NCBI GenBank assembly: GCA_029237775.1 | Contig: JAQZBR010000001.1 | Location: forward strand, 124,001-188,000 | Direction: 5' to 3' | DNA: 64,000 nt | From: Bacteroidota bacterium | GTDB lineage: Bacteria > Bacteroidota > Bacteroidia > 2-12-FULL-35-15 | Part shown: positions 22,741-57,288 of the stretch, piece after piece | How the letters are laid out: each line of letters begins with the position of its first letter | How positions within the stretch are numbered: position 1 is the stretch's first letter | Position numbers and translations under genes: made by a program | The notes under the pieces: model-generated | The model's database searches: none | Told to the model about the DNA's origin: nothing | What the model saw: only the letters and a program-made list of their open reading frames with translations

Positions 22741-25455
22741 TTATTCTGAGATCACCAACTTTTTTGTTGTTGATTTATCTTCAACAGAGAACTTCACAAA
22801 GTAAATTCCGCTTTCCAGATTCAATGCTTGCTTTGAGATGTGCACTGTGTAATCACCTTCTGCCTGGCCGCTGTTAGACTGCACAAAAACCGCTTTACCA
22901 AGGATGTCGATCACCTCCACTTTTGTGTTAGCTTTCTTATTCAGGTGATAAGCAATGGTGCTCGATTCGTTTGCAGGATTTGGATAGATTGCAAGGCTTG
23001 AAGTTGCATTGCTGCTCTCATCGATCCCTACAACACCTGTAATATTGAGGTTGTCAAGATAAACGTTGTTGCTTTCTGCACCGGTAGTGTATTCAAATTT
23101 GAATCTTACATTTCCGGTATTAAAAGTTGACGGTATAGCGATTGTTTTCAGACTCCAGTTGCTTGAAGCTGTTGGTGTGAAAGCATTCGGGTAGTAACCA
23201 TTGTTGATCAACGTACTGTCGCTGAAGGTACCTGATGGTAAAATAGTCCATGTTGTTCCGCAATTTTTAGATGCGTAAACTTTCAATACATCATTGACCT
23301 CAGTTACAGATCCACCATGAGAAGCCGCTGCCACTCTGAATGTCATGATATTTCCGCTTGTCCATGAAAGATCATAAGAAGGTGTATATAGATCATCAAC
23401 ATCATATTGATAGTTTCCGAATCCTGCCATTTTCATACATGAATTGCTTTGATAACCTGCACTTGTAAAACGCGTCCATGTGTTATTATTGTCGTAATTA
23501 TTGATTGACCAGATTCCATAGAAATGGCTTGGGTCTTCAAATGTTTCAGAGAAAGCCCCGTTATAATCAACATCAGCCCAGGTAGGATCAACTCGGATAT
23601 AATCAGTTTTTGTAAGTGAATCGGTTCCTGCTGAATTATAAGTGGTAAGGGTTACTTTGTAGATGCCTGCGTTTGGATAGGTCACATTCACCGTGGTCAT
23701 TGAGTTGGAATTAAATGGTGTTCCACCATAGAATGTCCATTTTACACTGTCGGCAGTTCCGAGATGTGTATTCTTTGTAAACTTAACAATATCACCTGCA
23801 CAAACACGGTTCTTGTTTGAGAAGAAATCAGCTTTTGACAAACAGTTCTGTGGAGTTAGAACACCGGTTGCAGCAAGATTAGCTGCTGACCATAAATTGC
23901 TTCTGTGAGAAACGGCACTTTGTAATGCAGCACGCATTCTGTCTTTCTGACCCAGTGTATACATCTTTGAACAATATGAATAATCCATATAGTTCTGTGT
24001 GTTTTCGATCAACCCGGCAGTTCCCTGGATAAACAAACTGTCGATCCCGAAAGTCCCTGTCGAATCTTCGGCATTGTATGCATAGATCCTGAATGTAACA
24101 GGTGTTATTCTGTTCACATAATTAGCACCTGACAAGGCGAATTTTGATCCCTTTTGAGTGTTTGTATTATCTGAATTCATGAAAATTACAGATGCAGTAC
24201 TCTGAGTGGAAAGGTTAGTATTTGCCGGTGTGACCGAAGCTGTAAGGTTGGTGGCGTAATTATTCACGCTTGAACGCACTGCCCAGGTTCTTGGTCCAGT
24301 CGCGTTTCTGTCAACATTGAAAGTGATTCCTGTCAAATTCATTGTATATTCATTTGAAGCAGGTGCTATAGTAAATTCGTAATACTTCGAAGTATTTAAA
24401 GTTCCGGTCATTGAAGCGTATGTTGTAGCTGCATCCGGAGCTCCGGTTCCCCAGGTGTTAAAAGAGAATTTAGCATTCACAGATGTGGCAGAACCAACGC
24501 CTACTGCAGAAACATCCGAAAAATTCCATCCGGTAACGGCAACCGTGTCGATTGTATCTGTTGTACCGTGAGCAGAAGTGAAGTTATCAAACTTATTTGC
24601 TATGAAGGGGTATGTAGTGCAATTAGGAGTATTCAGATCCGCAGATGTACAAGCGGTATGTCCTTTCGTTGGAGGAGTGTCATTCACGCCATCATCACCG
24701 CAAACAGTTCCCGGATCATTATTATTTCCCCAAGGATGCTGAAGATTCAGGTAATGTCCAATCTCATGAGTCAATGCTCTTGAACTGAAAACAGCTCCGG
24801 TTCCTATACTTCCGATGTAATCATTAAGGATAATAATCCCGTCAGCTGGCGCCAGAGGACCTGCTGTTGCAGAAGGATAATACGCATAACCAGCCACCCC
24901 TGCAGATCCGATTGTATTCACCACCCAAACATTAAGATATTTATCACGTGGCCAAGGGTTTAATTTTGAACCGTCATCCGCAAAGTTTGTTTTGTGAGAA
25001 TAAATTCTGTCAATCCCGTTTGTACAATTACCATTAGGATCAAGCTGAGCCAGTCTGAATTCAATAAAACAATCTGCAGCCAGATTTTTGAATGGCGGAA
25101 GGATCTTTCCTGAAGTCGTGCCTATTGTGTCGGCATAGTTTCCAAAGCTATAATCGCGATTTAAAATATTGATCTGATCGAATATCTGTGCATCTGAAAT
25201 GTTTTCTGTACCGTTCTGATGAATTATATGAAATACAACAGGAATAATATAAACAGTGGAATCCCCGGGAGCCCTGTTCTGAAGCAACTGCGAAATTTCT
25301 GCATTATGAGCCGCATAAGCAGCCGCCAGGTTGGGGTTAGCATCAAAAACCTGCTGATTAACGTGTGAGCTTCCACAATTCAACTGAGCATGAGCGTTGA
25401 AGGCCAAAGATCCTAATACCAAACCAAGAGTAAGTTTGTAAAATTTATTTTTCAT
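22741..25455 (-). CDS. M43 (pappalysin-type) metalloprotease with T9SS sorting domain, copy B
   Basis: 904 residues, the same architecture as copy A. Signal peptide 1-23, zinc motif H230-E-I-G-H234 with the third His in 'LQHPWG', 'DDGVNDTPPTKG', a ~200-residue beta-rich insertion, Met-turn 'NYMDYSYCSKMYTLGQ', PKD-like domain and CTD. From 'SKADFFSNKNRVCAGDIVKF' to the end the two copies are nearly identical in protein sequence. The N-terminal third and the insertion differ much more, which fits a duplication followed by divergence of the substrate-facing part or by gene conversion of the 3' half. Own terminator at 22692-22720. Confidence 0.9.
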   Translation of the reverse strand: MKNKFYKLTLGLVLGSLAFNAHAQLNCGSSHVNQQVFDANPNLAAAYAAHNAEISQLLQNRAPGDSTVYIIPVVFHIIHQNGTENISDAQIFDQINILNRDYSFGNYADTIGTTSGKILPPFKNLAADCFIEFRLAQLDPNGNCTNGIDRIYSHKTNFADDGSKLNPWPRDKYLNVWVVNTIGSAGVAGYAYYPSATAGPLAPADGIIILNDYIGSIGTGAVFSSRALTHEIGHYLNLQHPWGNNNDPGTVCGDDGVNDTPPTKGHTACTSADLNTPNCTTYPFIANKFDNFTSAHGTTDTIDTVAVTGWNFSDVSAVGVGSATSVNAKFSFNTWGTGAPDAATTYASMTGTLNTSKYYEFTIAPASNEYTMNLTGITFNVDRNATGPRTWAVRSSVNNYATNLTASVTPANTNLSTQSTASVIFMNSDNTNTQKGSKFALSGANYVNRITPVTFRIYAYNAEDSTGTFGIDSLFIQGTAGLIENTQNYMDYSYCSKMYTLGQKDRMRAALQSAVSHRSNLWSAANLAATGVLTPQNCLSKADFFSNKNRVCAGDIVKFTKNTHLGTADSVKWTFYGGTPFNSNSMTTVNVTYPNAGIYKVTLTTYNSAGTDSLTKTDYIRVDPTWADVDYNGAFSETFEDPSHFYGIWSINNYDNNNTWTRFTSAGYQSNSCMKMAGFGNYQYDVDDLYTPSYDLSWTSGNIMTFRVAAASHGGSVTEVNDVLKVYASKNCGTTWTILPSGTFSDSTLINNGYYPNAFTPTASSNWSLKTIAIPSTFNTGNVRFKFEYTTGAESNNVYLDNLNITGVVGIDESSNATSSLAIYPNPANESSTIAYHLNKKANTKVEVIDILGKAVFVQSNSGQAEGDYTVHISKQALNLESGIYFVKFSVEDKSTTKKLVISE

Positions 25456-32705: not shown

Positions 32706-34277
32706 TTATCTTCTTCCGCCTAAACCTACAGGGCTACCAACACGTGTCATTGCACAACGGAAACCTAACCATGCAGTTGACTGGCGCTGATCAAGGTAAC
32801 GTCTTGTGCCCGGAACCATCCAATATGCACGGTCTTTCCAGGATCCACCTTTGTAGACACGAGCTTTGTCGTTGATCATAGACGTTAAAGCAGGATCTTT
32901 ATCATCCGGTTTGATTGGAGCATTATACATACCACTGCTCTCAGGTTTACCTACTGTAGCTGCATCATAAGGATCTGACCAAGCATTTCCGCTTAATCCT
33001 TCAACCTGTGATAAAACATCTCCATCCTGGAAGTTGATGTTATCAGCATATTTATAGTTTCGCCTTTCATCCAGGTTATCATCCGGAACAGAGATACTTA
33101 CATCTCTCCAGCGAACCATACCCGGGATGCTTACGATATTACTATCGCTGTCATATTTAATTGTATCGTTGATCATGATACCGTCTACGTCACGCTCCTG
33201 CGTTTTAAATACATTTCCACGGAAAGGACGGAAATCAGATTTATCTTCAGGAGATAAAGGACGGTAAACATCCATTACCCACTCAGAAACGTTACCTGCC
33301 ATGTTATACAATCCGTAATCATTTGGCCAGTATGAGAATACAGGAGTTGTGATATCACCCGCATCATTCAATGCACCTGCAGTACCCATCATATCTCCGT
33401 TTGAACGCTGATAGTTAGCTAGCATCTGACCGAGGTATTTCTGATCAGGGTTACGTGTACCATGTCCGTTCCATGGATATAATCTTCTGTCAGTGATACG
33501 CTCACCGATTGTATTTCCAATTAAGCCGTAAGCAGCAAATTCCCACTCAGCTTCTGTCGGAAGTCTGTAACGTGGCAAAAAGATACCGTCTTCCATTCTA
33601 ACCAAACGATCACCTCCATTAGGAGACATTGAAGGGATTGGAGTTACGACAGTACCTGTCCATTTCCCGGCAAGATATTCATCCGTATTAAAATAATCAG
33701 TTTCAGTCGGAGAAGGGTTGTGTTCAAGAATACCTTCGCGAATAAGGATGAACTCATTCACGCGGTCAGAACGCCATGCACAGAAATCGGAAGCCTGAAG
33801 CCAGTTTACACCTACTACAGGATAATCCCTATAGGAAGGGTGACGCAGGTAATATTCAACGTAAGGCTCATTAAAAGCCAAACGATCACGCCAAACTAAA
33901 GTATCAGGCAAAGCCTTTTTAACGATATCAGGAAAGTTAACGGCAAATACCGCTTCCGTCCAATGTAAATATTCAAGATAATCAAGGTTACGAACCTCTG
34001 TCTGATCCATATAGAAAGAAGAAACAGTTACCCTTCTTGGAATTGAGTTCCAGTCATAAGTAACATCCTGTTCAGCTCTTCCCATTGTAAATGTTCCACC
34101 TTCTACCAATACTAATCCCGGACCGGTCTCCTGTTCTTCATAAGGCCCAACTTCGAATCCTCCGTTCTTAGGATTATTATATTCCCAAGCAGTTACCGGA
34201 GAGCGTTCCTTCTGACAGGATGCAAATGCTGCAACTGCAACTCCGAGTAATAATAATTTGCCGGTTGATGTTTTCAT
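32706..34277 (-). CDS. gldJ: Gliding motility / T9SS lipoprotein GldJ
   Basis: 523 residues. Lipobox in 'AAFASCQKERS' (Cys20). The rest is a formylglycine-generating-enzyme-like (SUMF1/EgtB) fold: 'EQETGPGLVLVEGGTFTMG', 'SFYMDQTEVRNLDYLEYLHW', 'YPVVGVNWLQASDFCAWRSD', 'YRLPTEAEWEFAA', 'GLYNMAGNVSEWVMDVYRP' and 'RVYKGGSWKDRAYW'. The 'EQETGPGL...GGTFTMG' opening and 'YLEYL.W' are GldJ-like, as I remember them from Flavobacterium, more than GldK-like. The lipoprotein stabilises other Gld proteins and is needed for gliding/T9SS. It is transcribed after porP (81-base gap), back to back with porU, a neighbourhood that also supports GldJ. Confidence 0.9.
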   Translation of the reverse strand: MKTSTGKLLLLGVAVAAFASCQKERSPVTAWEYNNPKNGGFEVGPYEEQETGPGLVLVEGGTFTMGRAEQDVTYDWNSIPRRVTVSSFYMDQTEVRNLDYLEYLHWTEAVFAVNFPDIVKKALPDTLVWRDRLAFNEPYVEYYLRHPSYRDYPVVGVNWLQASDFCAWRSDRVNEFILIREGILEHNPSPTETDYFNTDEYLAGKWTGTVVTPIPSMSPNGGDRLVRMEDGIFLPRYRLPTEAEWEFAAYGLIGNTIGERITDRRLYPWNGHGTRNPDQKYLGQMLANYQRSNGDMMGTAGALNDAGDITTPVFSYWPNDYGLYNMAGNVSEWVMDVYRPLSPEDKSDFRPFRGNVFKTQERDVDGIMINDTIKYDSDSNIVSIPGMVRWRDVSISVPDDNLDERRNYKYADNINFQDGDVLSQVEGLSGNAWSDPYDAATVGKPESSGMYNAPIKPDDKDPALTSMINDKARVYKGGSWKDRAYWMVPGTRRYLDQRQSTAWLGFRCAMTRVGSPVGLGGRR

Positions 34278-34358: not shown

Positions 34359-35315
34359 TTAGAAAGACGGACAGCTAACAGTTCTGAACTTTTTCTTTTT
34401 CGGCTTACATTCAAACTGAAGTGAAAAAGAGATCTCATGAGAACCGGCAGTAGCGTTAGTCAGTTTAGAAACTGTAACGTCATAACTGTAACCGATCTTA
34501 AAAAAATGTTGAGTGAATCCGATAAGTGCAATGAAAGAATCCTGGTTACGATACCACAGACCGCCTACAATTGAGCCTTTATTAACGTACACTCCCAGAT
34601 TAAGCTGCTGAAAATCTTGTTGTTTCTGATATAAGACGTTAGGAGAGATCATAGTTTCATTTCCTTTATCCCCAACAGGTAGAACAGCACCCGCGTGAAC
34701 GGTCATTTTCATTGGAAGCTTGCTTGGCCCGATCAACCCTTCATCAGGCTGTGTTAAATGGTGAGCGGCAAATCCGAAGAAATAACGCTTGCTGTAACCT
34801 AAAAGACCTGCAGAAAGATCGACATTTGATTTTTGAGAAACGCCCGGAACTTCATTGGTATTGTATACAAATCCTCTACGTTCATCAATCATATCACCAA
34901 AAGTAAGCTTGCTCCAGTCGATGCTCTTTTGAAAGTAAGTCGCCTGAAATCCAAACTTCATTGAAAATTCACGGTTGATATTCAGCTGATAAGAATACAT
35001 CGCTGAAACATTTGTAGTGGTAAGGGTTCCCTGCCCGGCCTTGTCGTTGGTAACCAGAAGGCCTAAACCACCTTTGATAGCATCAAAATGCTGATCGTAA
35101 GAAGCGGAATAAGTAACATAAGTCCCTGAAATTGCCGGCCATTGATTTCTATAGTTCAGACAGATTCGTGGACATCTTGCCGTTCCTGCGAATGCAGGGT
35201 TCAAATAAAGAGGATTAGCGTAAAACTGTGTAAATTCGGGATCCTGAGCGAATGACTCCTTGCCAAATCCTAATGAAAACAGTACAGTTAAAATTAAAAC
35301 AACTCGTTTTAACAT
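34359..35315 (-). CDS. porP: PorP/SprF family T9SS outer-membrane protein
   Basis: 318 residues: signal peptide (1-23), the family start 'QDPEFTQFYANPLYLNPAFAG', then repeated amphipathic strands of a barrel ('GGLGLLVTNDKAGQGTL', 'FGFAAHHLTQPDEGLIG', 'GLWYRNQDSFIALIGF') and a terminal Lys-rich 'KKKKFRTVSC' tail. PorP/SprF proteins link the T9SS ring (PorK/N) or adhesin export to the outer membrane. Many genomes have several copies; this one pairs with gldJ, not with gldKLMN. The tail with a late Cys is typical of PorP-type copies. Which partner it serves cannot be told from sequence. Confidence 0.88.
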   Translation of the reverse strand: MLKRVVLILTVLFSLGFGKESFAQDPEFTQFYANPLYLNPAFAGTARCPRICLNYRNQWPAISGTYVTYSASYDQHFDAIKGGLGLLVTNDKAGQGTLTTTNVSAMYSYQLNINREFSMKFGFQATYFQKSIDWSKLTFGDMIDERRGFVYNTNEVPGVSQKSNVDLSAGLLGYSKRYFFGFAAHHLTQPDEGLIGPSKLPMKMTVHAGAVLPVGDKGNETMISPNVLYQKQQDFQQLNLGVYVNKGSIVGGLWYRNQDSFIALIGFTQHFFKIGYSYDVTVSKLTNATAGSHEISFSLQFECKPKKKKFRTVSCPSF

Positions 35316-35537: not shown

Positions 35538-38500
35538 ATGAAAACCGGAAAATTATTCTTCTTCTTTTTCTTCCTTCCTCTGAGTATTTTTTCTCAAACT
35601 AAAGTAGCGGCTTCAAAAACTGCAGGAACTCATCTTAAATGGGCGCAACCTATCCGCATCAGCATGTTAGAGGGTGCAAATGCTAAAACTATTTATTTTG
35701 AAGGTGCTGATTATAACTACACCGATCATTTCCTTCCGAGATATTCAAAAAGAATTGAATTGAACGGAAACGAAAATAACTTGAGCGCAACCCTTGTCAA
35801 CACTGTTTATGAACCACTTACGGATGAAGAAGTTACAGCCTTACCTGCCAAAGCTGTTATTCCGTCAGAAATAAATCCGACCACTTCTGTAAGTATTCAG
35901 CGCAAACAACCGTACGGCATAATATCCTTCATACCTGTCAGAAAAAACAACGCAACCGGAAAATACGAAAAACTGGTTTCATTCGATGTTCAATCCAAAC
36001 CATATGTTACGAGTATCCGCTCGGGAAGCCGCAGTCAAACCTACGCAGCCAACTCAGTTTTGCAGAGCGGAAAATGGTATAAGATCGCCACAACCTCTAA
36101 TGGCATTTATAAGTTATCATATACTTTTCTTCAGGACCTGGGAATCAACATGACCTCGGTAAGCCCTCAAAATTTAAGAGTTTATGGAAATGGTGGTGGT
36201 ATGCTCCCTGAACTAAGTTCTGCGCCCCGGTTAGACGATCTTGCCGAGATAGCGATCCACATGCAGGATAACGGAGATAGCGATTTCGACCCTAATGAAT
36301 ATGCTTTGTTTTATGGAACGGGAGCTGACACTTGGACTTATAACGCCACCTCCTGCCCCAACTTCAGTCACATAAAAAATCTTTATTCAGATTCAGCTTA
36401 TTATTTCATCACCTTTGATCTTGGCGCTGGAAAGAGAATTCAAACACAGGCATCCTCTACTGCTACTCCCACAGATACCGTGACTTCCTTTGATGATTAT
36501 GCATTCACGGAAAATGACAACATCAGCTTTATCAAGTCGGGACGCAACTGGTATGGTGAACACTTCGATAATATTTCATCCTATAGTTTTTCATATACCT
36601 TCCCGAATATTGTAATGAGCGCAAGTGCCGGAACTGCCAAAGTTCAGCTGGCCTCACGCTATGATAACAATGGTGCAGGAGAATCGAACTACTCCGTATC
36701 ATGTCAGGGAGGAAGCACCTTTATCAGCCCTGCTGAAATAGTAAGTGAAAGTCCGTATGATGACTATGCTATCATCGATAACGGCTGCTTTACCTTTACA
36801 CCAAACAGTCCGATAGTGAACGTGACCACCACCAAACTTACCGCAAATGCACTCGGATGGATGGATTTTGTTGAAGTGAATGTTCGGAGAAACCTGATCA
36901 TGTCGGGTCCACAAATGATGTTTCGGGATTCGAGATCCACAGGTCCGGGACGTATAGCATCCTACAATCTTGCGAGCTCATCTCCCGTACAAGTATGGGA
37001 TATCACGGATCCAACGAATATAAAATTACAATCGGGCAATTTCACAGGCGGAGTGTTTCAATTTACTTTACCATCTTCAACGTTAAATCAATTTCTTGCT
37101 TTCACTGCCACTTCGTTTAACACTCCTATAAAATCAGGCTCTGTTGCTAATCAAAACCTTCACGCCCTCAGCACAAAGAAGATGATCATTGTGGCTCATC
37201 CTAACTTTATGGCGGAAGCAACCCAACTTGCAGGGTATCATGAGTCGCATGATACCATCTCAACGCTGATTGTTACACCTCAGCAGATTTACAATGAGTT
37301 CTCTTCTGGCGCCCAGGATATTTCCGCGATTCGTAATTTCATAAAAATGTTTTACGACAGAGCCACCACTGACGAAGAAATCCCTAAATATCTGTTGCTC
37401 TTCGGTGATGGTTCATATGACAATAAAAGACGCTTTACGAACAACACGAATTTTATTCCCACTTATCAGTCGTTCAACTCCACTGTAACAACACTCTCTT
37501 ATGTTTCTGATGATTTCTACGGACTTCTCGATGATAACGAGGGCGTTTGGGAAGAATCAGCCGACAACGATGCAGTGGATCTCGGCATAGGTCGCTTTCC
37601 CGTTAAAACCAAAGCGGAGGCTCAGATCGCGGTGATGAAGATCCTCACCTATAACAAGACAGGCGTTCCACCGACCACTTCCAATAACAGTTCCTGCAGT
37701 GAGACTGCCAGCTCTCCGTTTGGAGACTGGAGAAACACCGTTTGTTTTGTCGCGGATGATGAAGACAGCGACTTACATGTTGTTCAATCCAACACTTTGG
37801 CTCAAAAGGTGGACACTGCTTATAACAATTACAACGTTGATAAAATTTATATTGACGCTTATCCGCAGGAAACAACTCCGGGCGGTAACCGTTATCCGAC
37901 CGTTACTGATGCGATCACAAAAAGAGTTCAGAAAGGGGCACTTATAATAAATTATACCGGGCATGGCGGAGAAGTGGGGCTGGCGCATGAGCGTATTGTT
38001 GAAGTTGCTGATATCAACCGTTGGAGTAACATAAACAATATGCCTTTATTTTTTACCGCCACGTGTGAATTCAGCCGTTATGACGACCCGGAAAGGACTT
38101 CAGCAGGTGAGTATGTTTTCTTAAATCCAAATGGTGGCGGTATTGCATTGTTGAGTACGGTGCGACTTGTATTCGCATCACCGAATTTTGTTCTGAACCA
38201 AAGCTTTTACAATTCGGCATTCACTCCAATCAATGGTAAAATGCCAACCCTTGGCGATCTGTATTATTACATGAAGAATCAGCTGGGAGGAAACTCCGTT
38301 AACAGCAGGAATTTTACATTGTTAGGTGATCCTGCTTTACGCTTAGCTTATCCGAAGTATAATGTTTCAACGGATACAGTAAATATGAATGCAGTAATCA
38401 GTGCAAGTACCGATACCCTGAAAGCACTATCTATGGTTACCGTTAGCGGACATGTACGGTCAAAATCAGGTGCAGTACTTACTTCTTATAATGGTGTGTT

Positions 38501-39464
38501 ATATCCAACCGTATATGATAAGCCTCAGAATATAACCACTGTTGCCAATGACCCTTGCCCTCCACCTCCCGGAGGATCCTGCAGTCAGCCATACACATTT
38601 CAGTTGCAAAAGAATGTGTTATATAAAGGAAAAGTAAGCGTTACGAATGGTTATTATAAATTCAGCTTCATCGTTCCAAAGGACATTGCATATCAGTACG
38701 GAACCGGAAGGATCAGTTATTATGCTGAGAATGGATCCGAAGATGCAAACGGCTTTTATGAGAAAATAATTATTGGTGGATCAAATGATTCTGCTGCCAT
38801 CGACAATAACGGCCCTGAGATCAGACTTTACATGAATGACACCAAGTTTGTTGAAGGAGGACTGACAGATGAGAATCCGGATCTGTTTGCGCTTTTACGC
38901 GATGAGAACGGAATCAACACTGTAGGGAATGGAATCGGCCATGATGTGACGGCCGTTGTGGATGCCAACACTGAACATGCAATTGTGCTGAATGATTTTT
39001 ACCAGGCGGATCTTAACAGCTATAAAAGCGGAAGTGTCCGTTATCCTTTTGTGGATATGACGGAAGGCAAGCACACGCTCGACCTTAAGGTGTGGGATGT
39101 TTATAATAATTCAGCAAAGGCGCATACGGAATTTATCGTTGCGAAATCAGCTGAGCTGGCGCTGCTTCATGTGATGAATTATCCGAACCCGTTTACGACC
39201 CGCACCACTTTCTATTTTGAGCAGAATCAGTGCTGTCAGTCTTTACATGTGGAGCTTCAGATCTTTACTGTTTCAGGAAAGCTGGTTCGTAATTTCAGTC
39301 AGTTCGTTTACGCAGAAGGCTACCGATCCAATCCAATAGAATGGGATGGCCGTGATGATTTTGGAGACAAGATCGGGAAAGGGGTTTATATATATCGCTT
39401 GAAAGTGAAGACGGATCTGGGTACTACCGCAGAAAAATATGAGAAGCTTGTCATTTTAAATTAA
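35538..39464 (+). CDS. porU: T9SS sortase PorU (C25 cysteine protease), catalytically intact copy
   Basis: 1308 residues from ATG 35538; the frame is open to TTG 35514 and ATG 35523, but a -7 box overlaps that stretch and the signal peptide MKTGKLFFFFFFLPLSIFSQ starts here. PorU cleaves the CTD of T9SS cargo and joins it to A-LPS at the cell surface. N-terminal propeptide-like region ('SVLQSGKWYKIATTSNGIYK'), C25 domain about 540-920 with 'LLLFGDGSYDNKR', catalytic His809 in 'NYTGHGGEVGLAHERI' (codon 37962-37964) and Cys843 in 'FTATCEFSRYDDP' (codon 38064-38066), spaced 34 residues. C-terminal CTD-like domain ('NYPNPFTTRTTFYF ... GVYIYRLKVKT'). First gene of a plus-strand run with a second porU-like gene and porV. 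Confidence 0.93.
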   Translation: MKTGKLFFFFFFLPLSIFSQTKVAASKTAGTHLKWAQPIRISMLEGANAKTIYFEGADYNYTDHFLPRYSKRIELNGNENNLSATLVNTVYEPLTDEEVTALPAKAVIPSEINPTTSVSIQRKQPYGIISFIPVRKNNATGKYEKLVSFDVQSKPYVTSIRSGSRSQTYAANSVLQSGKWYKIATTSNGIYKLSYTFLQDLGINMTSVSPQNLRVYGNGGGMLPELSSAPRLDDLAEIAIHMQDNGDSDFDPNEYALFYGTGADTWTYNATSCPNFSHIKNLYSDSAYYFITFDLGAGKRIQTQASSTATPTDTVTSFDDYAFTENDNISFIKSGRNWYGEHFDNISSYSFSYTFPNIVMSASAGTAKVQLASRYDNNGAGESNYSVSCQGGSTFISPAEIVSESPYDDYAIIDNGCFTFTPNSPIVNVTTTKLTANALGWMDFVEVNVRRNLIMSGPQMMFRDSRSTGPGRIASYNLASSSPVQVWDITDPTNIKLQSGNFTGGVFQFTLPSSTLNQFLAFTATSFNTPIKSGSVANQNLHALSTKKMIIVAHPNFMAEATQLAGYHESHDTISTLIVTPQQIYNEFSSGAQDISAIRNFIKMFYDRATTDEEIPKYLLLFGDGSYDNKRRFTNNTNFIPTYQSFNSTVTTLSYVSDDFYGLLDDNEGVWEESADNDAVDLGIGRFPVKTKAEAQIAVMKILTYNKTGVPPTTSNNSSCSETASSPFGDWRNTVCFVADDEDSDLHVVQSNTLAQKVDTAYNNYNVDKIYIDAYPQETTPGGNRYPTVTDAITKRVQKGALIINYTGHGGEVGLAHERIVEVADINRWSNINNMPLFFTATCEFSRYDDPERTSAGEYVFLNPNGGGIALLSTVRLVFASPNFVLNQSFYNSAFTPINGKMPTLGDLYYYMKNQLGGNSVNSRNFTLLGDPALRLAYPKYNVSTDTVNMNAVISASTDTLKALSMVTVSGHVRSKSGAVLTSYNGVLYPTVYDKPQNITTVANDPCPPPPGGSCSQPYTFQLQKNVLYKGKVSVTNGYYKFSFIVPKDIAYQYGTGRISYYAENGSEDANGFYEKIIIGGSNDSAAIDNNGPEIRLYMNDTKFVEGGLTDENPDLFALLRDENGINTVGNGIGHDVTAVVDANTEHAIVLNDFYQADLNSYKSGSVRYPFVDMTEGKHTLDLKVWDVYNNSAKAHTEFIVAKSAELALLHVMNYPNPFTTRTTFYFEQNQCCQSLHVELQIFTVSGKLVRNFSQFVYAEGYRSNPIEWDGRDDFGDKIGKGVYIYRLKVKTDLGTTAEKYEKLVILN

Positions 39465-39514
39465 GGCTATCAGCCACGCCATAAATTATTAACGCTTCTA
39501 AAACATAAAGAATC

Positions 39515-42500
39515 ATGCGGATCTCTTTTGTGTTATTACTCTGCCTGTCACAATTTATTTATGGCCAAAGAAGTTATAATCCGAGGGCAGATGACATTGA
39601 AATGATTGTCTGGCAATTACCACAACCCATTATTCCTTCGATCGCAGAAAACAGGCAAGCCTTATATTTCGCAGGAGCTCATAACAACACTGAAGACCTT
39701 TTTCTACCGCGTTATTTTCAAAAGATCAGTTCCGGTAATTCGTTTAAAGCAAACATAAGTTTAACAAATCAGTTATTTACTGATCTTAGTATAGATGAAT
39801 TGGTGTTGCTTCCTAAAAACTACAATCTTAAAAATGAAATCGACATCAGGATCGAAGATCTTATAAGCAAAAAAGAAAGCTATACTGTCGTTTCATTTAT
39901 TCCGCTGCGCAGGAACATGCTCACAGGAAAAATCGAAAAGCTTATCTCCTTTAAGTTGCAGGTGACCCCTTCCGTGGAAAGAAAAGCCGAAGAAAACAGA
40001 AGCCCTATGTATGCCGCAAATTCAGTGCTTCAGAGTGGTAACTGGCATAAAATTTCCGTTGCGAATGATGGGATCTTCAAGCTCGACCAAACGTTTCTTC
40101 AAAGTATAGGAATGAATACAAATTCCATCGACCCGAGGAATATCAGGATCTATGGAAACGGTGGCGGAATGCTTCCTGAACTTAATTCCATTAGCCGTAT
40201 CGATGACCTTGCCGAAAACGCGATCTATGTAGAAGGAGAAAATGACGGAGTGTTCAACAGCGCGGATTATGTATTATTTTATGGGAAAGGACCGGATGCC
40301 TGGAATTATGATTCCGGAGCTTGTCCTAAATTTTCACATGTTAAAAATATTTTTTCCGATTCGAGCTATTACTTTATCACCTCGGATCTTGGGCCGGGTA
40401 AAAGAATTCAATCACAAGCCTCAACATCCCTAACTCCTACGAATAACGTTTTCACTTTTGACGATCATGCATTTCACGAAAAAGAAGATGTCAATTTACT
40501 GAAATCAGGTAAAGAATGGTATGGTGAATATCTGGACCTTGTAAATTCATATAATTTCCCATTTAGCTTTCCAAACATAGATCTCAGTTCGCAGGGAACT
40601 GTGAAAGTGAGACTTGCCAGCCGATATGATAATAATGGAAACGGGGGAGCTGTCTATAACGTCAGTGCTTCCGGAACCACGACAGCAATTTCTACCGATG
40701 AAATCGTCAGTGAAAACACCTATAGTGATTATGCAAGTATAGGAAGCGGATGTTTCACTTTTTCTCCTATCAATTCTTCAGTTAATGTTAGCGTGTCAAA
40801 ACAAACACCTAACGCAACCGCCTGGATAGATTATTTAGAGGCTAACGTCAGGCGTGGGTTAAACGTGACAGGCAGCCAACTTTCTTTCCGTGATGCTCTG
40901 TCGATGGGAACGGGCAACGTTACAAAATTCAACCTGACCAGCCAGGGTTCACTTCAGATCTGGGAGGTTACTGATCCGCTAAATGTGCGAAAGCAGAGCC
41001 TGAATGTTAATGGAAGCAACTATGATTTTACCCTAAGCACGGACAATCTTCGTGAGTTCGTAGCCTTCAATGGTTCATCATTTTTCATACCCGGTAAATG
41101 CGGAAAAGTTTCAAATCAAAACCTCCATGCTATCTCAGGTAAAGATCTGATCATTATCACTGCGCCTGAATTTAATAGTGAAGCTTCAAGACTCGCTTCG
41201 CATCATGAAACAAAAGATTCTTTGCGCACTATAGTTGTGACTACATCCCAGATATACAATGAATTTTCCTCCGGCTCACAGGATGTAGCAGCACTCAGAG
41301 ATTTTGTGAGAATGTTATATAAGACTGCTTCAGCACCGTCTGAAATCCCTCGCTATCTGTTGCTTTTCGGGGATGCATCGTACGACTATAAAAAAAGAAT
41401 CACTAATAATACGAACCTTGTTCCTGTTTACGAATCAGACAATTCACTTGACGTTCTTAACAGTTATTGCACTGATGATTTCTTTGGCTTGCTTGATGAT
41501 AATGAAGGTTTGTGGACAGCAGATGCAATTGACCTTGGTATAGGACGTATTGTAGCTAAAACAAAACAAGAAGCAACTGAAGCGGTCAACAAGATCCTAC
41601 TTTATACTCAAACGGGAATCATCAACTCCGGTGCAGAATTAAATTCATGCTCCGCCACTGCCCCACCAAATCCATTTGGCGACTGGCGGAATTACATTTG
41701 TTTTGTCGGTGACGATCAGGACAATAACGTGCATCTTGCTCAAACAAATAATATGGCAGCGAAAGTGGATACTCTCAATAACAACCTGAATATTGAGAAG
41801 ATCTATCTTGATGCTTATCAGGAAATTCAAACAAGCCAGGGTAACCGCAATCCTGACGCAACCAAAGCGATCGAAGACCGGATCTCAAAAGGATGTCTGA
41901 TATTAAATTTTACAGGATATGGCGGACGAACAGGATGGACCAATGAACGTGTTTTGGAAACGAGCGAAATTGATGATTTCCGCAACAGAGACAAATTACT
42001 CTTTTATTACGCGGCAACGGCTGAGTTCAGCCGCTTTGATGATCCCGGAATGACTGCAGGAGGGGAAGTTTTTGTCCTTAATCCGAACGGAGGCGCAATT
42101 GCAGGCATTTCAGCAACTCGGCTTACATTCTCCGGTCCAAACTTTGCGCTTAACAATAATTTTTATTCCTCCGCCTTTCTGCCGGTAAATGGACGAATGC
42201 CGCGATTAGGGGACATTTACAAATCTTTTAAAAACTCATTGGGTGGAAACAGCACAAACAGCCGTGGATTTGTCCTGTTGGGAGATCCCGCCTTAAGGCT
42301 TGCCTATCCCCTGCATAAAATAATAACAGATTCAATTAACAGTATATCAGCCACGATAACTGACACTACCAAAGCATTAGCTTCTGTAACAGTGAATGGC
42401 CATTTAACCGATAACAGCGGGAATATCTTAAACACTTACAACGGTGTTTTGTACCCTACTGTATTCGATAAAAAGAAAAACATCACGACCCTTTCGAACG

Positions 42501-43390
42501 GTGGACCGGCAACTAATCCACCCTACACTTTCAGCCAGCAAACGAATATTCTTTTTCGTGGAAAAGTAAGCGTAACACACGGACGATTTTCTTTCAGCTA
42601 CATTGTTCCAAAAGATATCGATTCCACGTATGGCTTTGGCAGAATAAGCTATTATGCCGATAATGGGACGACAGATGCCAGCGGTGCTTATGAGAATTTT
42701 TACATAGGCGGTAAAGACATGAATGCAGTGACAGATAATACCGGCCCTGAAATCCGGCTGTACATGAATGATACAAAGTTTGCATTCGGTGGATTAACGG
42801 ATGAAAATCCGGATCTCTTTGCATTGCTGAAAGATGAACACGGCCTCAACACGTATAACACTACAACTCCCTTAAAGGTGATCCTTGATGCAAATACACC
42901 AAATGCTATCAATCTTAATGATTATTACCGATCAGATCTTAATACCTACAAAAGCGGTTCTGTCAGATATCCGTTCAGTCAGCTTTCAGACGGAAAGCAC
43001 ACTCTCGAGCTACACGCTTCTGACGTTTATAATAACACCTCCAAAAGCTACCTGGAATTTGTTGTGGCGAAGTCGGCAGAGTTTGCATTGACTCATATCC
43101 TTAATTACCCGAATCCATTTACAACGCATACCACTTTTTATTTCGAACAAAACCGCTGCTGTCAAGCCCTCCAGCTCGAACTTCAAATATTTACCATTTC
43201 AGGGAAGCTTGTGCGCAATTTTAATCAGCCTCTTTACGTTGAGGGCTACCGTTCGGATGCGATCGAATGGGATGGCAGGGATGATTTTGGAGATAAGATA
43301 GGCAAAGGCGTTTATATATATCATCTCAAAGTAAAGACTATGGAAGGACAGACCGCAGAAAAGTATGAAAAACTCGTTATTTTAAATTAA
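39515..43390 (+). CDS. PorU paralogue with both catalytic residues replaced (predicted pseudo-sortase)
   Basis: 1291 residues, signal peptide MRISFVLLLCLSQFIYG then Q. It is co-linear with the upstream PorU along its whole length, including the N-terminal 'SVLQSGNWHKISVANDGIFK', C25 domain and CTD-like end ('NYPNPFTTHTTFYF ... GVYIYHLKVKT'). At the active site the His is Tyr802 ('NFTGYGGRTGWTNERV', codon 41918-41920), the Cys is Ala836 ('AATAEFSRFDDP', codon 42020-42022), and the second nearby His is also lost; spacing (34) and all flanking motifs are kept. It cannot be a C25 peptidase by known chemistry. The frame is intact and motif-level conservation outside the dyad argues against decay. 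It lies 50 bases after porU and before porV, so a structural or regulatory role in the attachment complex is my inference. Confidence 0.92.
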   Translation: MRISFVLLLCLSQFIYGQRSYNPRADDIEMIVWQLPQPIIPSIAENRQALYFAGAHNNTEDLFLPRYFQKISSGNSFKANISLTNQLFTDLSIDELVLLPKNYNLKNEIDIRIEDLISKKESYTVVSFIPLRRNMLTGKIEKLISFKLQVTPSVERKAEENRSPMYAANSVLQSGNWHKISVANDGIFKLDQTFLQSIGMNTNSIDPRNIRIYGNGGGMLPELNSISRIDDLAENAIYVEGENDGVFNSADYVLFYGKGPDAWNYDSGACPKFSHVKNIFSDSSYYFITSDLGPGKRIQSQASTSLTPTNNVFTFDDHAFHEKEDVNLLKSGKEWYGEYLDLVNSYNFPFSFPNIDLSSQGTVKVRLASRYDNNGNGGAVYNVSASGTTTAISTDEIVSENTYSDYASIGSGCFTFSPINSSVNVSVSKQTPNATAWIDYLEANVRRGLNVTGSQLSFRDALSMGTGNVTKFNLTSQGSLQIWEVTDPLNVRKQSLNVNGSNYDFTLSTDNLREFVAFNGSSFFIPGKCGKVSNQNLHAISGKDLIIITAPEFNSEASRLASHHETKDSLRTIVVTTSQIYNEFSSGSQDVAALRDFVRMLYKTASAPSEIPRYLLLFGDASYDYKKRITNNTNLVPVYESDNSLDVLNSYCTDDFFGLLDDNEGLWTADAIDLGIGRIVAKTKQEATEAVNKILLYTQTGIINSGAELNSCSATAPPNPFGDWRNYICFVGDDQDNNVHLAQTNNMAAKVDTLNNNLNIEKIYLDAYQEIQTSQGNRNPDATKAIEDRISKGCLILNFTGYGGRTGWTNERVLETSEIDDFRNRDKLLFYYAATAEFSRFDDPGMTAGGEVFVLNPNGGAIAGISATRLTFSGPNFALNNNFYSSAFLPVNGRMPRLGDIYKSFKNSLGGNSTNSRGFVLLGDPALRLAYPLHKIITDSINSISATITDTTKALASVTVNGHLTDNSGNILNTYNGVLYPTVFDKKKNITTLSNGGPATNPPYTFSQQTNILFRGKVSVTHGRFSFSYIVPKDIDSTYGFGRISYYADNGTTDASGAYENFYIGGKDMNAVTDNTGPEIRLYMNDTKFAFGGLTDENPDLFALLKDEHGLNTYNTTTPLKVILDANTPNAINLNDYYRSDLNTYKSGSVRYPFSQLSDGKHTLELHASDVYNNTSKSYLEFVVAKSAEFALTHILNYPNPFTTHTTFYFEQNRCCQALQLELQIFTISGKLVRNFNQPLYVEGYRSDAIEWDGRDDFGDKIGKGVYIYHLKVKTMEGQTAEKYEKLVILN

Positions 43391-43508
43391 TCATTACATT
43401 AGCAACCCTAAATATTTTCAAAATATGATTTTTGCGACCCGGAGGCATGAAAATTTAGACACAAATTCAGTTATGGCAGTTTCCATTGAAATAAAAAAAT
43501 ATTCGAAA

Positions 43509-44777
43509 ATGAAAGATTTAAAGCCCTGCAACAAAAGTTATTTCCTGCTCTTCCTTTCCTTAATAGCCGGTTCAGCGCTGAATGCGCAAAACCAGGCTCA
43601 GAGAGCCAGCGAACTTCAACTTAATACGATCACTACAGCTGTTCCGTTTCTTCTGATCACTCCGGATTCACGTGCCGGTGGTATGGGAGATGTAGGTGCT
43701 GCATCAACACCTGACATCAGCTCGATTCACTGGAATCCTTCAAAGCTGGCATTCGTAGATAAAAAAATGGGACTTGGTGTTTCTTACACTCCATGGTTAA
43801 GGGCACTCGTGCCGGATATTAACCTTGCATACCTTTCAGGTTATTACAAAACCAAAAAAAGCGGTACAATCGGAGCTTCCTTACGTTACTTCTCTCTTGG
43901 GGATATTACTTTTACAGATGCGAATGGTAATACTGTCGGCCAGTTCCGTCCGAATGAATTTGCACTTGATGTTGCATATGCCACTAAACTTTCAAAAGAG
44001 TTCTCAGTTGGAGGGGCCGTTCGCTTTGTGAATTCTAACCTTACCGGAGGTGCATTAGTGGAAGGTGCACAGACCAAAGCAGGGCGTGCTATCGCGGTAG
44101 ATATCTCTGCCCTTTACAGAAAAGAGAAGCTGAAGCTTGGTGATAAAAAAGGTATTGGTGCTATTGGTTTAGCGATCACAAATATTGGTAACAAAATGTC
44201 TTATTCTGACCGTGGAGGCACTGACAATGCAGATTTCATCCCTATCAACATGCGTCTGGGAGGTGCTTTAACCGTTCAGCTTGATGATTATAACTCTATT
44301 GGTTTTATGGCAGACGTTAATAAGCTGCTTGTTCCTACCCCGGCTATTTACAAGCATAATTATGATGCATCCGGAAAAGACCTTGGAATTGCTTACGATG
44401 CAGACAATAATCCGATCATTGAAAAAGGAAAAGATCCAAACCGCGGTGTTGCAGAAGGTATGTTTGGCTCATTCAATGATGCACCTGGTGGCGGAAAAGA
44501 AGAGCTGCGTGAGCTTAACTATTCCATCGGACTGGAATACTGGTACAATAAATTATTCGCAGTAAGAGCAGGTTATTTTTACGAGCATCCGACAAAAGGT
44601 AACCGTCAGTTCTTCACATTAGGTGCGGGAGTTAAATACAACGTGTTCGGACTTGATTTTGCTTACCTGATCCCGACTCAACAAAGAAATCCTTTGGAAA
44701 ACACTTTAAGGTTTACGCTTACTTTCGACTTTGATGCTTTCAAAGCTCAGAATGATGAGAATAAAACCACAGAATAA
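43509..44777 (+). CDS. porV: T9SS outer-membrane protein PorV (LptO)
   Basis: 422 residues from ATG 43509; the frame is open to 43425, but the signal peptide (YFLLFLSLIAGSALNAQ) starts after Met 43509. FadL-like barrel: 'VPFLLITPDSRAGGMGDVGA', 'SSIHWNPSKLAFVDKKMGLG', 'YLSGYYKTKKSGTIGASLRY', 'VGGAVRFVNSNLTGG', ending in 'LRFTLTFDFDAFKA'. PorV is a shuttle that picks up CTD cargo from the SprA translocon and hands it to PorU. It follows the two porU-type genes in the same direction, as expected for the gldJ-porU-porV neighbourhood. Confidence 0.95.
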   Translation: MKDLKPCNKSYFLLFLSLIAGSALNAQNQAQRASELQLNTITTAVPFLLITPDSRAGGMGDVGAASTPDISSIHWNPSKLAFVDKKMGLGVSYTPWLRALVPDINLAYLSGYYKTKKSGTIGASLRYFSLGDITFTDANGNTVGQFRPNEFALDVAYATKLSKEFSVGGAVRFVNSNLTGGALVEGAQTKAGRAIAVDISALYRKEKLKLGDKKGIGAIGLAITNIGNKMSYSDRGGTDNADFIPINMRLGGALTVQLDDYNSIGFMADVNKLLVPTPAIYKHNYDASGKDLGIAYDADNNPIIEKGKDPNRGVAEGMFGSFNDAPGGGKEELRELNYSIGLEYWYNKLFAVRAGYFYEHPTKGNRQFFTLGAGVKYNVFGLDFAYLIPTQQRNPLENTLRFTLTFDFDAFKAQNDENKTTE

Positions 44778-44790
44778 TATTCATTTACTT

Positions 44791-44824
44791 TTTTTGATCC
44801 CGCCTGAACAGCGGGATTTTTTTA
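44791..44824 (+). terminator. Terminator after porV
   Basis: ATCCCGC (44797-44803) pairs with GCGGGAT (44811-44817), loop of 7, followed by a run of seven T. It separates the porU/porV transcript from ispF. Confidence 0.8.
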
Positions 44825-56298: not shown

Positions 56299-57288
56299 AT
56301 GAAAAAAATAATACTCCTTTTTATCGGATTGTCATTACTGTCTATGACAAATCAGGCACAGACGGTAACTGATGTTCAAGGAAACGTTTATAATACCATT
56401 GCCATCGGAACACAACTGTGGATGAAAGAAAATCTAAGGACAGGCAAATACAACGATGGAACACCAATTACTTATCCGGGAGTAAATAATACTTTATGGC
56501 AAAATAATACCAATGGAGCGTATGCCTGGTTACAGAACGATTCCAGCACTTACGCTGTCACCTACGGTGCTTTATACAATTGGTTTGCTGTGAGTCCGAC
56601 AACAAACGGTGGAAAAAACATTTGTCCACTTAACTGGCATGTACCGACTCATAATGATTTTACGACACTGGAGAGGGCTCTATGCACAAGCGGAACCTGT
56701 GTGACAGATTTCCCTTTTGATTTGTCAACTATAGGCTACAGAGGTACGAACGAAGGAAATAAGATGAAAGAATCGGGAACTATCCACTGGAACAGTCCCA
56801 ATGCAGGAACTAACAGCAGTATGTTTACGGGCTTGCCGGGTTGCAAGCGTGATAATGCCGGAGCCTTCTCAACTACACCCGGAACTTTTGGGCTCTGGTG
56901 GACTTCCACTTCTTATGATGCAACCTTTGCATTTAACAGAGCGCTAAGCTATAACAATGCAGGTGTGAGTCGCGCTCATGGATATCAAAAAAGCAATGCT
57001 TTTTCGGTTCGTTGTGTATGTGATTTTACTATAGGGGTTGAGGAGATCGAATTTGAAAATAAAATTCAAATTTATCCAAATCCGGCAGTTGAGAAGCTGA
57101 CAATTGACTTTGACCTTACACAAGACCTGGAGATGAACCTTTATAACATTATTGGAAAGCTCGTTATTCAGAAGAACTTAAGCTCAGGCAGGAATGATAT
57201 TGACATCAGTTCATTGCCCAAAGGAATTTATTTGATCAGAATAAGTTCCGATGCGCATGCTTTTCAAAGGAAATTAGTAATTCAGTAA
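56299..57288 (+). CDS. FISUMP-domain protein with T9SS sorting domain
   Basis: 329 residues: signal peptide (1-20), then the Fibrobacter succinogenes major paralogous (FISUMP) domain, a C-type-lectin-like fold: 'VTDVQGNVYNTIAIGTQLWM', 'NLRTGKYNDGTPI', 'YGALYNWFAV', 'CPLNWHVPTHNDFTTLERAL', 'GLPGCKRDNAGAF', 'LWWTSTSYDATFAFNRALSY' and 'SVRCVCD'. CTD at the end ('IQIYPNPAVEKLTIDF ... PKGIYLIRISSDAHAFQRKLV'). Probably a surface protein that binds a ligand; no enzyme motif. Tracts of Asn/Thr/Gly are normal for the family. Confidence 0.92.
   Translation: MKKIILLFIGLSLLSMTNQAQTVTDVQGNVYNTIAIGTQLWMKENLRTGKYNDGTPITYPGVNNTLWQNNTNGAYAWLQNDSSTYAVTYGALYNWFAVSPTTNGGKNICPLNWHVPTHNDFTTLERALCTSGTCVTDFPFDLSTIGYRGTNEGNKMKESGTIHWNSPNAGTNSSMFTGLPGCKRDNAGAFSTTPGTFGLWWTSTSYDATFAFNRALSYNNAGVSRAHGYQKSNAFSVRCVCDFTIGVEEIEFENKIQIYPNPAVEKLTIDFDLTQDLEMNLYNIIGKLVIQKNLSSGRNDIDISSLPKGIYLIRISSDAHAFQRKLVIQ

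Follow-up and report, generated by a model that had tools for sequence, protein, structure and literature searches.

Why should a bacterium keep, directly beside the gene for the sortase PorU of its type IX secretion system (T9SS), a second full-length porU gene whose product lacks both catalytic residues? The question is raised by a 64,000-nucleotide stretch of a Bacteroidota bacterium (assembly GCA_029237775.1, contig JAQZBR010000001.1, positions 124,001 to 188,000), which we call the window; its genome is referred to as G000, and coordinates are window positions. The original prediction, made from the letters of the window, described two PorU-type proteins of 1308 and 1291 residues encoded 50 bases apart, the first (copy 1) keeping the His and Cys of the peptidase C25 dyad 34 residues apart and the second (copy 2) carrying Tyr and Ala at the same positions and spacing, and it read copy 2 as a pseudo-sortase. 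Both frames are open at the coordinates given in Table 1, the gap between them is 50 bases, and all four codons read as claimed. Taking together the results described below, we conclude that copy 2 is very probably a selected, non-cutting paralog of PorU.

The two proteins share the same residue at 712 of 1288 aligned positions (55%). Both exceed the cut-off (420 bits) of the curated PorU model NF033707 over the full profile length, the match in copy 2 covering profile positions 1-1095 of 1095 and running to residue 1290, and both contain the peptidase C25 domain (PF01364). The same model would therefore label copy 2 a sortase despite its missing nucleophile, a caveat for annotation. With the PorU2 model NF052324 copy 2 reaches 169.1 bits, below the cut-off of 450, so it is not a PorU2. 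When aligned to PorU of Porphyromonas gingivalis (6za2), the GHGG and TATC motifs of the latter fall on the dyad columns of both copies, occupied by His809 and Cys843 in copy 1 and by Tyr802 and Ala836 in copy 2, with a spacing of 34 residues in each. Copy 2 thus lacks the Cys-His catalytic dyad that PorU requires. The first 200 alignment columns are where the two G000 copies are least alike (0.30, 0.38), and their last hundred residues, divided into three parts, show a likeness of 0.76, 0.77 and 0.90. A check for gene conversion gave no exact match of at least 20 bases in register between the G000 copies, and one such match, of 21 bases, between the two copies of the related genome G028 introduced below.

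At the dyad columns, His and Cys were each found in 147/147 of the other PorU sequences counted. This set combines 87 sequences gathered first (copies 1 of G000 and G028 included) with 60 gathered later, and no pair in it is more than 97% identical. It leaves out fragments shorter than 900 residues (L044, L128, the second frame of L064 and the short frame of L125), the PorU2 frame L131, repeats (L060 of L039, L061 of L058), shorter cuts, the split genes of G049, G099, G102, G126, G222, G227 and G292, and the PorU of G011, which is split between two contig ends; both of its pieces carry GHGG, and TATC is present in the one that extends that far. Assignment of the dyad to a wrong column is ruled out by the alignment to 6za2 and to these 147 sequences; the columns are rightly placed, and the alignment did not put an intact dyad elsewhere in copy 2.

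Duplication as such was considered as the cause of dyad loss and ruled out, since the dyad is intact in 38/38 copies from 19 genomes with two readable PorU genes. These genes are directly adjacent in six of the genomes (G046, G122, G176, G199, G150 and G080), 1.4 kb apart in G229 and on different contigs in the other 12; the second PorU of G019, fragment L043 with an intact dyad, belongs to the set of 147 and stands outside the 19. The proposed look at other genomes did find porU pairs, and among the pairs read a dyad residue is lost in copy 2 of G000 and G028 only. Neighbouring pairs with both copies intact were read elsewhere in the Bacteroidia at L102 (G080), L103-L106 and L040 (family f12) and L107 (G229). 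Like the locus studied here, they have two porU genes followed by porV (read in G080, G176, G122, G150, G046 and G229); unlike it, they keep His and Cys in both copies in all seven genomes (G080, five of f12 and G229), and they form clades apart from copy 2. In family f12, 8/8 sampled genomes carry two PorU, which form two clades of eight, so the duplication there is old. In G080 two PorV-type genes lie upstream of the two intact porU genes and a third lies downstream of them.

An ortholog of copy 2 is encoded in G028 (record JAJTCJ010000086.1), a metagenome-assembled Bacteroidetes genome of the same genus. It scores 1286.9 bits with NF033707 and sits between porU and porV, as copy 2 does in G000, where the plus-strand order is porU copy 1, porU copy 2, porV and a gene that we take to be ispF. 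In the G028 ortholog the catalytic Cys is also replaced by Ala and the His is kept. Sequencing error behind the Cys loss is ruled out by this recurrence. On the question whether the substitutions recur in relatives, Cys to Ala does so in G028, so that loss of the nucleophile is the event common to both orthologs, and the loss of His was seen in G000 only. Four residues beyond the lost Cys the G028 ortholog carries another, new Cys (GATADFSC), at a position where copy 2 of the window has Arg.

Considering that the synonymous rate (dS) could not be estimated for either pair, constraint was judged by identity at fourfold-degenerate sites and by a simple simulation. Fourfold identity is 107/310 (35%) between the copies 2 and 125/375 between the copies 1; these similarly low values imply that silent sites are saturated. 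The two copies 2 nevertheless retain 63% protein identity with no stop in either, whereas each of 50 simulated decays to the same identity, under equal random substitution, acquired at least 12 stops (mean 26). The nonsynonymous rate (dN, NG86) is 0.303 for the copy 2 pair and 0.217 for the copy 1 pair. Copy 2 evolves faster than copy 1 but is clearly constrained, and neutral decay is excluded: neither frame breaks nor neutral substitution was found. The pseudo-sortase reading is accordingly supported by an ortholog that also lacks the Cys, by the right placement of the dyad columns and by the constraint on the frame in both orthologs.

The changes at otherwise constant positions are gathered around the dyad. 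Among 69 near-invariant columns (with at least 97% constancy across 87 active PorU), four are altered in copy 2 (His802, Thr833, Cys836 and Thr867) and three in the G028 ortholog (Thr833, Cys836 and Thr867). All of them lie within residues 795-875, a stretch holding 12 of the 69 columns; the Fisher p of 0.0006 for copy 2 serves as a description, since the stretch was set with the changed columns already known. In a leave-one-out control, active rows with at least three changes never had all of them in this stretch, and three very diverged active rows have 1-3 changes there among 8 to 14. When 145 active rows (including the misread row L191) and a threshold of 98% are used, 41 columns qualify and the changed ones are the two dyad columns. 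At Thr833 and Thr867 the replacements differ between the orthologs, being Ala in copy 2 and Gly in G028. Columns conserved in the genus were changed in both copies 2 at 13/138 positions of the C25 domain, 12/104 of the immunoglobulin-like (Ig) part, 3/69 and 0/15 of the N-terminal parts and 0/44 of the C-terminal domain (CTD), where a further 4/44 were changed in one ortholog; the contrast between the CTD and the rest is not significant (p 0.06). Copy 2 thus keeps its near-invariant fold and CTD positions and retains the C-terminal T9SS domain, to which the PorU profile match extends. The model TIGR04183 alone does not list copy 2; the active G028 copy also falls below its cut-off (20.2 of 23 bits), so this model does not discriminate here.

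Modelling both copies with the C25 fold, as had been proposed, gave a mean predicted local distance difference test score (pLDDT) of 90.5 for each. The copy 2 model (residues 161-1291, 1131 residues) has the PorU/gingipain fold, with Foldseek E values of 1.1e-77 to 6za2 and 1.7e-19 to gingipain R, and the copy 1 model (residues 161-1308) matches the same two structures. Superposed on 6za2, the copy 2 model gives a Z score of 30.2 and a root-mean-square deviation (rmsd) of 12.4 over 870 residues, so the domains are set differently in the two; its C25 domain superposes on gingipain R (RgpB, 1cvr) with a Z score of 38.7 and an rmsd of 2.5 over 326 residues.

What, then, could a dead PorU do? We infer that copy 2 would be exported by the T9SS, by way of an N-terminal signal-like stretch (recognized by eye) and its conserved CTD, and would be held on PorV at the cell surface, like PorU; without a nucleophile it should neither cut nor join cargo. 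In P. gingivalis, according to one review, PorU becomes inhibited when it forms a dimer, in which the proteolytic domain of each molecule can be bound by a hairpin of its partner, and PorU retains its own CTD and stays bound to PorV (PMC10202324); the title of 6za2 also points to inhibition of PorU by dimer formation. Because its fold and CTD are kept, a dead PorU would be suited as the second member of such a pair. Copy 2 may take the second-protomer place that inhibits active PorU, may keep the active enzyme latent or guard its CTD, and would thereby set the number of live PorU sites. That copy 2 serves as a non-catalytic partner bound to PorV, and perhaps pairs with the active enzyme, is a reading by analogy; it is the likeliest of those considered, and we give it not quite an even chance. 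Its more specific form, a two-subunit sortase in which a live and a dead PorU pair on PorV and the dead one holds the latency role of the second identical PorU of P. gingivalis, is put forward tentatively and is rather doubtful.

Evolution of copy 1 bears on the partner reading. With G028 as outgroup, copy 1 has 128 private changes in G000 and 75 in its nearest relative G009 (p 0.0002), and GldJ, PorP, PorV and IspF show no such difference between the two genomes. Copy 1 likewise has 131 private changes in G028 and 95 in G032 (p 0.017), with no difference for PorV (24/24) and IspF (5/3); GldJ of G028 lies off the contig. An excess was also seen in the Ig part of copy 1 (18 vs 3, p 0.013), a hint only, being one of several looks. 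More changes in copy 1 in the genomes that have copy 2 would agree with coevolution of the two as partners, and also with a slight relaxation of copy 1 or lineage effects. As a separate observation, active PorU of G000 and G009 are 76% identical (57-58% in the first 200 alignment columns), and the values for PorP, GldJ, IspF and PorV are 97, 94, 88 and 85%.

Several points weigh against the partner reading. The G000 versus G009 excess is weaker with G032 (p 0.017) or G023 (p 0.058) as outgroup, and PorP too shows a surplus of private changes in G028 relative to G032 (12 vs 1), so that the comparison is not clean. Copy 2 is also narrowly distributed: a PorU match was obtained from 34/36 genomes of the genus (none from G008 and G018, which are 76% and 64% complete), an intact dyad was read in the PorU of the other members (in G011 in two pieces), and copy 2 occurs in G000 and G028 only (2/36). 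In the near relatives G009 and G032 it is cleanly absent, porU being followed directly by porV, and it is therefore dispensable. Finally, in the P. gingivalis PorU mutant C690A, PorV is reported to occur together with cargo that is still uncut, and PorZ and PorQ to form a smaller complex from which PorU and PorV are missing (PMC5562754); an inactive PorU is therefore no simple stand-in in the full complex.

The age of the duplication was approached with trees. In a 38-protein tree under a mixture model (quick search), the two copies 2 group together (100), next to PorU of G032, G028, G000 and G009 (97 by the Shimodaira-Hasegawa-like approximate likelihood ratio test, SH-aLRT), which would put the duplication before these four genomes, with losses in G009 and G032. 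In a tree of 89 rows under a simpler model (LG+G4), copy 2 instead branches outside the remaining PorU of the genus (SH-aLRT 94). The approximately unbiased (AU) test rejects a position of copy 2 inside the G000-G009-G028 group (p 0.016). Copy 2 is a variant met so far in two species, both of the same genus.

A link between copy 2 and a missing PorQ or PorZ is not supported, as at least one of each was found in 8/8 genomes tested; G000 has one PorQ above the cut-off and one PorZ. At least 150 matches to type A CTD cargo were obtained in G000 and in 6/8 genomes overall, four of these without copy 2. Such a large cargo set would suit a CTD-holding receptor on PorV, to which cargo CTDs bind uncut, leaving some cargo uncut or awaiting active PorU, and retention of the C25 fold and of most near-invariant columns of the catalytic domain also favours this alternative. 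We consider it unlikely: the changed columns surround the dyad and Thr833 and Thr867 have been filled differently, which suggests a cleft no longer held for substrate, and four genomes without copy 2 likewise have at least 150 cargo matches, a level of counting that would hide finer differences. Copy 2 could also be a structural surface protein that merely uses the CTD and PorV route and is unconnected to PorU or its cargo. The well-kept CTD, with no genus-conserved column changed in both orthologs, agrees with this, as does the low likeness of the first 200 columns of the G000 copies; against it stand the place that copy 2 keeps in both genomes, with porU on one side and porV on the other, and the complete PorU fold predicted over 1131 residues, and we hold it to be improbable.

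A useless duplicate on its way to being lost would explain why copy 2 is missing from G009 and G032, two losses on the 38-protein tree, and why it evolves faster than copy 1. Orthologs free of stops that share so much protein sequence across saturated synonymous sites, and near-invariant changes confined to residues 795-875, are not what such decay would leave, and this very improbable explanation is nearly refuted already. Slighter still is the chance that copy 2 remains an enzyme by way of another nucleophile. The G028 ortholog, with its His and its new Cys, might be read in that manner, but copy 2 of the window has Arg at that position and Tyr in place of His, so there is no replacement common to both.

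Compared with known systems, copy 2 resembles P. gingivalis PorU (6za2) in its full-length profile match, C25 fold, Ig-like part, CTD and place before porV, and departs from it in the Cys to Ala and His to Tyr substitutions and in being a second gene beside an intact porU. PorU2 (NF052324), a putative second sortase, is likewise a PorU-related C25 protein, and G000 has one too; copy 2 differs from it by its profile score and by lacking the His and Cys that the G000 PorU2 has. That separate gene (L131, C3:196000-210000) scores 780.9 bits with NF052324, carries His and Cys at the aligned columns and lies about 0.5 kb from a PorV/PorQ-type gene. Regulation of an active enzyme by a catalytically dead paralog is reported for the S-adenosylmethionine decarboxylase (AdoMetDC) prozyme of trypanosomes (PMC5201418) and for a dead deoxyhypusine synthase (PMC3663545). 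Like copy 2, these are dead paralogs kept beside an active enzyme; unlike it, they belong to unrelated enzymes, and the partner role measured there is for copy 2 a proposal. In agreement with the original prediction, which knew of no described pseudo-PorU, neither a Cys-less PorU nor a pseudo-PorU was found in the open-access literature searched, among the matches listed, subscription papers lying mostly outside the search.

The features of the locus are collected in Table 1. As listed, the porV frame probably includes 28 codons too many (43425-43511), and its true start is probably the in-frame ATG at 43509, which precedes a signal-peptide-like stretch recognized by eye. The consensus scan listed no plus-strand terminator-like site between copy 1 and copy 2 or between copy 2 and porV; the scan is weak, and so is the site after porV, as 12 sites were found and 10.2 are expected by chance. 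The window also contains at least three other genes for T9SS cargo with a type A CTD, at 19914-22592 (-), 22741-25455 (-) and 56299-57288 (+), corresponding to C5:143923, C5:146750 and C5:181070 among the CTD matches listed.

Table 1. Features of the porU-porV locus in the window and the copy 2 ortholog of G028.
Feature	Position	Strand	Details
gldJ	32706-34277	-	TIGR03524 470.1 bits, cut-off 458.2
PorP/SprF-type gene, divergent neighbour upstream of copy 1	34359-35315	-	TIGR03519 255.8 bits
porU copy 1, active-type PorU sortase	35538-39464	+	1308 aa; NF033707 1344.7 bits; PF01364 362 bits
Copy 1 catalytic His809 codon CAT	37962-37964	+	aligned to GHGG of 6za2
Copy 1 catalytic Cys843 codon TGT	38064-38066	+	aligned to TATC of 6za2
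porU copy 2, probable pseudo-sortase	39515-43390	+	1291 aa; NF033707 1258.9 bits; PF01364 334 bits (residues 546-929)
Copy 2 Tyr802 codon TAT, catalytic His column	41918-41920	+	by alignment
Copy 2 Ala833 codon	42011-42013	+	conserved Thr column, 3 residues before catalytic Cys column; Gly in G028 ortholog
Copy 2 Ala836 codon GCT, catalytic Cys column	42020-42022	+	by alignment; Ala in G028 ortholog too
Copy 2 Ala867 codon	42113-42115	+	near-invariant Thr column downstream of dyad in sequence; Gly in G028 ortholog
porV	43425-44777 (open frame)	+	NF033710 495.5 bits, cut-off 250
Terminator-like stem and T tail after porV	44796-44818	+	consensus scan, weak
G028 copy 2 ortholog	L039 3400-7281	-	63% identical to copy 2

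In P. gingivalis, the restraint of PorU and the escape of its own CTD from cleavage are tied to PorU dimers. In a natural pair such as this, in which one PorU is dead, the role of partner is uncoupled from that of cutting, and the pair adds a component of a secretion system to the pseudoenzymes that adjoin a live paralog. If the reading as a two-subunit sortase is true, the pseudo-sortase would be a dedicated regulatory subunit of a secretion system.

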